From Candidatus Caldarchaeum subterraneum (lineage in GTDB: Archaea > Thermoproteota > Nitrososphaeria_A > Caldarchaeales > Caldarchaeaceae), in NCBI GenBank assembly GCA_937934305.1, contig CALHAG010000001.1, positions 112,659 through 176,658 of the forward strand: 64,000 nucleotides of DNA, written 5' to 3'. This document shows, in pieces, positions 27,179-29,758 of this stretch. The notes under the pieces were generated by a model. The model did no database searches and was not told the origin of the DNA. It saw only the letters and a program-made list of their open reading frames with translations. Within the stretch, counting starts at the first letter, position 1. The number at the start of each line of letters is the position of its first letter. The position numbers and the translations under genes were made by a program.

Positions 27179-27394
27179 ATGGTCAAGCACATACTGGTAA
27201 CGTTGTCTGACGAGCAGTACAAATGCGTAAGCTTCCTGCGGAATAAGATGGGGAGCAGCGACGCCGAGGTTCTCCGCAACATTTTCCTCTCATGGCTGGC
27301 TGAGAAGGCGATGATCGGGTGTTGGGAGACGGATAGGGCTGTGGAGGAGTTTCAGAAGAAGTGGATGGAGAAGAAGGAGAAGACGACGGTTTAG
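27179..27394 (+). CDS. Small ribbon-helix-helix-like protein
   Basis: HILVTLSDEQYKCVSFLRNKMGSSDAEVLRNIFLSWL; immediately upstream of cysteine synthase. Confidence 0.5.
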   Translation: MVKHILVTLSDEQYKCVSFLRNKMGSSDAEVLRNIFLSWLAEKAMIGCWETDRAVEEFQKKWMEKKEKTTV

Positions 27395-27404
27395 GCGGCA
27401 AAAT

Positions 27405-28313
27405 ATGACGGTGGTCGGCGCGGAGCTTCTCCGAACAGAGTCAGAGGGTCTGTGGCAGCTGGTGGGCAAAACCCCTCTCCTCAGGCTCAGGTCTTTCGAG
27501 AAACCCGGCGTCAAGCTATACGCCAAATGTGAGATGTTCAACCCCGGGGGCTCGGTGAAGGATAGGCCCGCGCTCAGCATCCTCTTAGACGGCATAAGGT
27601 CCGGACATCTCTCACCGGGTAAAAGCATCCTCGACGCGACATCGGGCAACATGGGAGTGTCCTACAGCATGCTCGCCGCCTCGCTCGGCTACCGTGCCGT
27701 CATGGTCTCACCCGCAAACATCTCACCCATCAAACTCCGCAAAATGAAGGCCTTCGGCGCACAGGTCATCTTGACCGACGCGTTGGAAGGCATCGACGGA
27801 GCCATCCAAAAAGTCAGGGAAATGTATGAACAGGAGCCCGAGAAATATTTCTACGCAGACCAGTACAGCAACCCCGCCAACCCCCGTGCACACTATGAAT
27901 CAACGGGGCCCGAGGTCTGGATGCAGACAGGAGGAAAAATCACTCACTTTGTTGCAGGCGTCGGCACCTCGGGAACTCTACAAGGCACTGCGAGGTTCCT
28001 CAAAGAGAAAAACCCGCGGATAAAAGTGGTTGAGGTGCAGCCGGAGGACGAGTTCCACGGAATAGAGGGCCTCAAACACATGGCTTCAGCCCTGAGACCC
28101 AGCCTATACCGCGAAGACATAGCCGACAACAGATACTTCATCCGCACCGAGGACGCGGCGGAAACCAGCCGAAGACTCGCCAGGTCCGAGGGCCTTCTCT
28201 CAGGATACTCCGGCGGAGCAGCTTTAAGGGCTGCTGTTGAGCTGATTGAGGAGCTGGATGAAGGAGTCGTGGTGGTGGTTCTGCCCGACGGCTACGGTGA
28301 CTCGGAGAGATGA
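27405..28313 (+). CDS. cysM: Cysteine synthase family (PLP-dependent, CysM/CysK type)
   Basis: MFNPGGSVKDRPAL PLP lysine motif, DATSGNMGVSYSMLAASLGYRAVMV, GVGTSGTLQGTARFLK. Confidence 0.9.
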   Translation: MTVVGAELLRTESEGLWQLVGKTPLLRLRSFEKPGVKLYAKCEMFNPGGSVKDRPALSILLDGIRSGHLSPGKSILDATSGNMGVSYSMLAASLGYRAVMVSPANISPIKLRKMKAFGAQVILTDALEGIDGAIQKVREMYEQEPEKYFYADQYSNPANPRAHYESTGPEVWMQTGGKITHFVAGVGTSGTLQGTARFLKEKNPRIKVVEVQPEDEFHGIEGLKHMASALRPSLYREDIADNRYFIRTEDAAETSRRLARSEGLLSGYSGGAALRAAVELIEELDEGVVVVVLPDGYGDSER

Positions 28314-28732
28314 AGCTGGTGGTTAAGCGGCGGGTCTTCGAGGAGATAGCCAAGAGATGCATAGAAGGCTATCCCTATGAAACCGCGGGCCTCATGTTCG
28401 GCGACCTCGGCAGCCGGCTTGTCCTCGACATCTACCCCGTCCAAAACATCCACGAACACGACAGAAGAGTAAGATACCGGATAGACCCCATGGAATACTA
28501 CCGCGCAGAGAAGACAGCCGAGGAAAAAGGGATGACTATCGTGGGCGTCTACCACTCCCATCCCAACGTAGCCGCCCGCCCCTCAGCCTACGACCTCGAA
28601 TACGCACTCCCCCCATGGTCATACCTCATACTCTCCGTAAACCATGAAAAAGTCCTCGAATACGCCAGCTGGAGAGCCGTCCAAAACAACGGCGAGAAAA
28701 AATTCCTCCAAGAAGAAGTCGTCATCGAGTAA
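28310..28732 (+). CDS. JAMM/MPN+ metalloprotease (Mec/Rpn11-like)
   Basis: YETAGLMFG ... GVYHSHPNVAARPSAYD: intact E-HxHx10D JAMM signature; ATGA overlap with cysteine synthase stop. Confidence 0.9.
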   Translation: MKLVVKRRVFEEIAKRCIEGYPYETAGLMFGDLGSRLVLDIYPVQNIHEHDRRVRYRIDPMEYYRAEKTAEEKGMTIVGVYHSHPNVAARPSAYDLEYALPPWSYLILSVNHEKVLEYASWRAVQNNGEKKFLQEEVVIE

Positions 28733-28786
28733 AGATGAGACGATATGTATATTAATGGAACAGCAGTAAAAAGATGAGATAGACAC

Positions 28787-29329
28787 ATGGCTGTTAAGGT
28801 GTATCTTCCGACGCCGCTTCGCCAGTATGCTGATGGCCGGGATATGGTTGAGCTGGACGGCTCGACTGTTGGAGAGGTTCTAAACAAGCTTGTAAGCCGC
28901 TACACCGCGCTTCAGAAGCATTTGTTCAACGAAAACGGGGCGATAAGAAGCTTTGTGAACGTTTTCGTCAACAACGAGGACATACGGTTTCTCGAAGGCG
29001 TCAACACCAAGTTAAAGGACGGAGACGTCGTCTACATCATCCCCTCTATAGCGGGCGGGTTGAGCATCGCGGCCCCGGCCGCCATCTCGAAAAAGCTGGG
29101 CAGAACGGTTAAGCAGCACGGCAGAATAACCGTCCCCGCGAAGCTTCTCAAAAAGGCGAAGAAAAACGAGGTAACCGTCATCATAGACGACGTCAAATAC
29201 CTCTTCGAACCCGATAGATACAACCGCATCTATTTGCCGCCCGCTCTCCGGGAAAAAATAGCACACCTATCCTCTTTCGAGTTCACCCTGTCCGACGGCG
29301 AGCTCATCCTCAGGTTCAGAAGGTTTTAA
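28787..29329 (+). CDS. MoaD/ThiS/CysO-like sulfur carrier with internal Gly-Gly and AbrB-like C-terminal extension
   Basis: MAVKVYLPTPLRQYADGRDMVEL...DGDVVYIIPSIAGG (GG = residues 90-91) followed by 89 aa containing HGRITVPAKLLKKA and NRIYLPPALREKI. Confidence 0.85.
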   Translation: MAVKVYLPTPLRQYADGRDMVELDGSTVGEVLNKLVSRYTALQKHLFNENGAIRSFVNVFVNNEDIRFLEGVNTKLKDGDVVYIIPSIAGGLSIAAPAAISKKLGRTVKQHGRITVPAKLLKKAKKNEVTVIIDDVKYLFEPDRYNRIYLPPALREKIAHLSSFEFTLSDGELILRFRRF

Positions 29330-29353: not shown

Positions 29354-29758
29354 ATGGTCAAGTTTGTTGTTACGGTTGAGACGGAGGATGATGTAGAGGT
29401 TTCTCTCGAGGCTTCTTCTAAGGAGGAGGCTTTGGCCAACCTCGACGAGCTTCTTGCACTGACACGGGCTGTTGCGGAGAGGCTGAAAACCAAGCCGCAG
29501 CCCAAGGCTCCGAAAAGAAGGGGAAAATCTGAGGCGGTTAAAGCGCTCGAGATAATCGAGCAGAAACTCATTCCATCATCCTTCTTCAGCACCGCGAGAA
29601 CAACAGCGGAGGTTAGACAAAAAATCATCGAGCAATTCGGCCTACCGTTTCAGAGCCGCAAAGTTAGCCAAGCGCTGGGCATACTGTATGACAAAGGTGT
29701 TTTAACGCGTGTCGGGCAAAAAGGCAACTATAGATGGATTCTTCCCAAACAGCCGTGA
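29354..29758 (+). CDS. Hypothetical protein with C-terminal winged-helix-like segment
   Basis: TTAEVRQKIIEQFGLPFQSRKVSQALGILYDKGVLTRVGQKGNYRWIL. Confidence 0.5.
   Translation: MVKFVVTVETEDDVEVSLEASSKEEALANLDELLALTRAVAERLKTKPQPKAPKRRGKSEAVKALEIIEQKLIPSSFFSTARTTAEVRQKIIEQFGLPFQSRKVSQALGILYDKGVLTRVGQKGNYRWILPKQP

Follow-up and report, generated by a model that had tools for sequence, protein, structure and literature searches.

A sulfur carrier precursor joined after its Gly-Gly to a likely AbrB/MraZ-like protein and encoded beside a JAMM protease in Candidatus Caldarchaeum subterraneum

The window, a 64,000-nucleotide stretch of DNA from the hot-spring archaeon Candidatus Caldarchaeum subterraneum, contains a gene at 28787-29329 (plus strand) that encodes a SAMP1/CysO-type sulfur carrier joined to a second small protein. 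The 180-aa product consists of a CysO/SAMP1-type beta-grasp domain (residues 1 to 91; 28787..29059, plus strand) with the C-terminal sequence IIPSIAGG, followed by a tail of 89 aa. The open reading frame, its coordinates, the Gly-Gly pair at residues 90 and 91 (29054..29059, plus strand), and the continuation beyond it were all as described in the initial annotation. Its statement that the beta-grasp domain stops at the GG was borne out by two profiles with a boundary exactly there, Pfam ThiS (residues 5-91, 54.2 bits, cut-off 22.5) and NCBIfam SAMP1 (residues 9-91, 62.2 bits, cut-off 60). In phmmer searches, the carrier domain matched CysO of the BexX complex (4n6e) and CysO of Mycobacterium tuberculosis (3dwg), and CysO also gave the top Foldseek matches of the predicted full-protein structure. 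Conservation of the GG, which had been proposed as a check, was found in 100% of the carrier homologues examined. The translated C terminus is not GG, with 89 residues lying beyond it, so that processing is required. Gly90-Gly91 is the predicted JAMM cleavage site, on the basis of its conservation and of the cleavage of an orthologue (PMC6043591).

Upstream of the precursor gene, in the order CysM-JAMM-carrier, lie genes for a CysM-type cysteine synthase (27405..28313, plus strand) and a JAMM/MPN+ metalloprotease (28310..28732, plus strand). The CysM and JAMM genes overlap by 4 nt, and 54 nt separate the end of the JAMM gene from the carrier start. A JAMM peptidase thus adjoins the precursor, as had been claimed, and its catalytic motif E...HxHPx6Sx2D, read from the sequence as E24 plus HSHPNVAARPSAYD, is intact. 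The protein matched Prok-JAB (73 bits) and JAB as well as the PDB entries 2kcq, 2kks, and JAMM1 5lda. The CysM protein matched Pfam PALP, PDB cysteine synthases, and NCBIfam cysM, the last at 324.7 bits, under its cut-off of 394. A MoeZ-like E1 (ThiF plus rhodanese, the rhodanese part read by eye) is encoded elsewhere in the genome (G000:C13). Before CysM, at 27179-27394, lies the gene for a 71-aa protein that had no Pfam match and resembles a ribbon-helix-helix regulator by eye; its identity to the G002 protein is 92%, versus only 67% for CysM. On the 3' side, at 29354-29758, a 134-aa protein gave weak profile matches only, one of them winged-helix, and its gene follows that of the carrier in those f1 genomes that were checked.

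The tail (29060..29326, plus strand) is a basic protein with a pI of 10.2, in which K plus R (18) outnumber D plus E (9). The initial annotation had called it AbrB type with two hairpin motifs, an assignment supported by profile matches, by the motifs, and by a structure model of moderate quality. The first hairpin motif, HGRITVPAKLLKK (residues 111-123; 29117..29155, plus strand), and the second, DRYNRIYLPPALREKI (residues 143-158; 29213..29260, plus strand), are both conserved in the family alignment, with R/K conserved in each; the tail alignment has four invariant positions, and three of them (D52, R56, and P60) fall within the second. Pfam MraZ matched the tail in two stretches with 31.5 bits (gathering cut-off, 23), and a MraZ match at an E value of 0.1 or below was obtained for 11 of the 12 tail sequences scanned. 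The full-length MraZ equivalog TIGR00242 was not reached (13.1 against 98.35), and the score for the AbrB domain profile TIGR01439 lay under its cut-off. A profile of the tail family searched against the PDB matched AbrB (E value, 0.009) and MraZ (0.04 to 0.08).

For the full protein, the top AlphaFold model had a mean pLDDT of 85.8, the remaining four models reaching 61 to 65. In this sole confident model of the five, the tail was modeled as (beta-alpha-beta-beta)x2 with a pLDDT of about 79 to 93. A tail-only model from two sequences was poor (pLDDT, 49.8) and was left unused. Foldseek returned MraZ-DNA complexes with probabilities of 0.91 and 0.87 and E values of 0.11 to 0.15, ranked under many beta-grasp matches. 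The fold is likely of the AbrB/MraZ-like tandem swapped-hairpin class, and the sequence features suggest that the tail is probably a basic DNA-binding protein. An origin as a plasmid-borne element was discarded, because a plasmid search gave no match to the tail; a search of a viral fold library returned no tail match at an E value of 0.001 or below and was uninformative. A stand-alone paralogue of the tail, also a tandem hairpin protein, is encoded in the same genome (L304; G000:C14:38762-39007).

Cleavage of the orthologous precursor has been published. Fuchs et al. (2018; PMC6043591) expressed Csub_C0702 (SAMP), Csub_C0703 (CsJAMM), CsUb, and CsRpn11. As described there on the basis of a gel, CsJAMM cleaves the SAMP precursors Csub_C0702 and Csub_C1603 in vitro, CsRpn11 does not, and the cleaved bond was mapped by mass for CsUb only. 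Genome G003 has a ubiquitin open reading frame of 87 aa ending in TVGG-CGEPIRRAA, which matches the numbering given in that paper; together with the adjacency of its carrier and JAMM genes, this identified G003 as the C. subterraneum of the study. Its carrier is 97% and its JAMM 96% identical to the window proteins. By sequence, Csub_C0702 is thus the 97% identical orthologue of the window precursor, and the window JAMM is the orthologue of CsJAMM. The second CsJAMM substrate, Csub_C1603, is a carrier with a short unrelated tail.

Variable sequence after the GG was found throughout the order. With long fusions left aside, carriers bear 0 to 27 residues after the GG, and these are mutually unrelated, which ruled out a conserved signal in this region. 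At least one extended carrier was present in 31 of the 33 genomes with a P0002-type JAMM and in none of the 10 genomes without it (0 of 18 carriers), the absences representing about two clades (g14 and g10) and hence about two independent absences. Of the carrier subfamilies in g14, one lacks extensions in JAMM-bearing relatives as well. The comparison is informative for the other, whose six g14 members end at the GG; most of their nearest JAMM-bearing relatives carry 1 to 17 further residues. Genomes of g14 and g10 retain other JAMM proteins. Given the distribution of extended carriers, post-GG trimming by JAMM is probably the normal step of carrier maturation in this lineage, which would make a fusion at this position tolerable. 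Since short unrelated tails need trimming too, cleavage looks constitutive. The proposal that the adjacent JAMM cleaves after the GG agrees with both the published assays on Csub_C0702 and Csub_C0703 (PMC6043591) and this comparative pattern; most likely, the neighboring JAMM cuts the window precursor after Gly91. Another carrier of the window genome (L001 1429-1791, minus strand; G000:C25) has 23 residues after the GG and adjoins an open reading frame that is MoaE-like by eye.

Each of the four genomes of the genus has the uninterrupted fused frame, with identities of 100, 97, 70, and about 75% (the window genome G000, G003, G002, and G001, the last with sequence from residue 73). The three other genera of the family encode the tail in an open reading frame of its own, which starts inside or at the last carrier codons, so that the two genes overlap by a few nt: the carrier of G004 ends GG-SYD, those of G005 and G006 end GG-VGA with an ATGA overlap, and that of G007 ends GG-EGHA. 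In family f2, and among paralogues, the tail gene stands alone, away from the carrier. The tandem-hairpin tail family is clade restricted. Thus, the proposed search for the tail in homologues had a mixed outcome: it is fused throughout the genus, and in the sister genera it is a separate overlapping gene and so can exist apart from the carrier. Because the tail gene overlaps the carrier stop in three related genera, the fusion is best read as two overlapping genes joined. All fused forms lie on one side of a branch in the tail tree (support, 88/87); the carrier tree did not resolve this grouping. The fusion probably arose once, within this genus, from overlapping carrier and tail genes that were probably translationally coupled.

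It could be argued that the fused frame is an assembly or annotation artefact, or that codon 92, a TTG in the window, serves as an internal start from which the tail is made independently of the carrier. For internal initiation speak the ATG directly after the GG in G001 and the internal ATG retained in G002. However, the codon in this position is CTG in G003, and upstream of the first hairpin, ATG and GTG are absent from both G000 and G003, and TTG from G003 as well, so that internal initiation is unlikely in these two genomes. A frame error or assembly artefact was ruled out by the identical open frame in four separate assemblies, one of them a single contig, and by purifying selection on the tail, whose dN/dS between G000 and G003 was about 0.02/0.22 (carrier, 0.01/0.18). 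In addition, the orthologous gene was expressed and handled as a SAMP precursor (PMC6043591). We therefore regard these explanations as highly improbable.

Carrier and tail also appear to form a unit of their own. A TATA-like element, tatgtatattaa (28744..28755, plus strand), lies before the carrier start, inside the gap after the JAMM gene. By sequence inspection, relatives have similar elements at a comparable distance before the carrier, including G005 and G006, which have no JAMM upstream. This suggests that the carrier-tail unit has its own candidate promoter, separate from CysM-JAMM. Comparison of the promoters by eye gave no convincing shared operator before the carrier gene, and a direct repeat present in the window resembles a ribosome-binding region. 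In G005 and G007, carrier and tail are together and CysM-JAMM is located elsewhere, so the link between carrier and tail is more stable than that to CysM-JAMM and calls for an explanation in terms of function.

One such explanation would be that the tail is a partner protein, for example a chaperone or tether for the carrier, JAMM, or CysM, possibly active while fused. That this clade-restricted family stays beside the carrier even where JAMM and CysM are elsewhere is consistent with this idea, but its pI of 10.2, the conserved R/K in both hairpins, and the MraZ match above cut-off argue against it, and we consider a partner role rather doubtful. The initial annotation had instead proposed coupling to gene regulation, in which JAMM cleavage would be a regulated switch that frees an AbrB-type transcription factor, so that carrier maturation or the sulfur state would control expression. 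The basic, AbrB/MraZ-like tail, the carrier-tail linkage retained in four genera, and the cleavage of the orthologue by JAMM (PMC6043591) would fit such a switch. It appears unlikely, however: G004 to G007 translate the tail separately and need no cleavage, many carriers in JAMM-bearing genomes, Csub_C1603 included, have short unrelated tails to trim, carrier and tail are apparently under their own promoter, and no shared operator was seen by eye. It is similarly improbable that a stoichiometrically released DNA-binding regulator lets JAMM activity or the need for sulfur carrier govern how strongly the cysteine cluster is transcribed, which, if true, would be a new kind of archaeal transcription factor coupled to proteolysis; regulatory coupling would be a guess drawn only from the domain type of the tail. 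We infer the absence of a regulatory switch, because the separate proteins of the sister genera, the trimming of short tails, and the TATA-like elements give no sign of cleavage as a signal.

The preferred explanation, a fused precursor cut by JAMM into a sulfur carrier and a freed tail, with the fusion derived from a gene overlap, is as a whole very probable. One gene yields a CysO/SAMP1-type carrier precursor joined after the GG to a tandem AbrB/MraZ-like protein. The adjacent JAMM would cut after Gly91, and the exposed C-terminal glycine would be activated by the MoeZ-like E1. For the sulfur route, we infer by analogy with the CysO system that the activated carrier would probably bring sulfide to the neighboring CysM. 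The freed tail would be an independent protein, probably DNA binding and made 1:1 with the carrier. The merger of two overlapping, probably coupled genes would have been harmless through the routine post-GG trimming by JAMM.

That CsJAMM cleaves the orthologue in vitro is already known from the literature (PMC6043591); the architecture, its conservation, the gene-overlap ancestry, and the co-occurrence of JAMM with carrier extensions were established here. The nature of the tail and the origin of the fusion from a gene overlap appear to be unpublished, and the lineage-wide free variation of post-GG sequence is new. For a substrate of published JAMM assays, these results provide a previously unrecognized identity of the tail and make the DNA-binding question directly testable. 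They also suggest a route to ubiquitin-like (Ubl) fusion precursors, in which a trimming protease frees the post-GG sequence to vary and an overlapping neighbor gene is absorbed.

Among known systems, the closest is the pair Csub_C0702/CsJAMM, an orthologous adjacent pair with cleavage of the SAMP precursor in vitro; in the main text of that paper, the terms AbrB, MraZ, and DNA-binding are absent, the tail is not named, and neither a fusion origin nor a mapped bond for Csub_C0702 is given (PMC6043591). The Caldiarchaeum ubiquitin precursor is likewise cut by a JAMM protein, CsRpn11, exactly after the GG, but it has a 9-aa tail and a different Ubl, and CsRpn11 leaves SAMP precursors uncut (PMC6043591). 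MoaX of M. tuberculosis (PMC4326299) and the MoaD-MoaE protein DR2607 of Deinococcus radiodurans (PMC8832034) also have a carrier, an internal GG, and then a folded domain, and are cleaved after the GG for activity, DR2607 by DRJAMM. However, the domain behind the GG is in their case MoaE, the enzyme partner of the carrier itself, whereas the window tail is of a DNA-binding type. Release by JAB domains of carriers fused to other proteins was proposed in a 2006 survey (PMC1779556). Bacterial carrier-NIL fusions after the GG are clustered with JAMM and CysM (L010 5001-5513 and L051 4966-5472), and the match to the solved MoaD-related Thermus protein 1v8c stops at residue 87 of 168. In M. tuberculosis, CysO ends at the GG and Mec+ frees cysteine from CysO. 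The CysO-Mec+-CysM system resembles the window locus in its carrier, CysO being the most similar one, and in the presence of CysM, JAMM, and a MoeZ-like E1, but the window JAMM would additionally have to remove the 89-aa tail. Eukaryotic ubiquitin-ribosomal protein fusions join a Ubl to an unrelated small basic protein and are separated by a protease. They differ from the window protein in protease class and tail, and the origin proposed here parallels theirs. The same order holds a second, independent post-GG fusion, in which a carrier of G024 is joined at GG-M to a ThiF-type E1 (L273; G024:C7, 3985-4833) in an open reading frame that runs off the contig.
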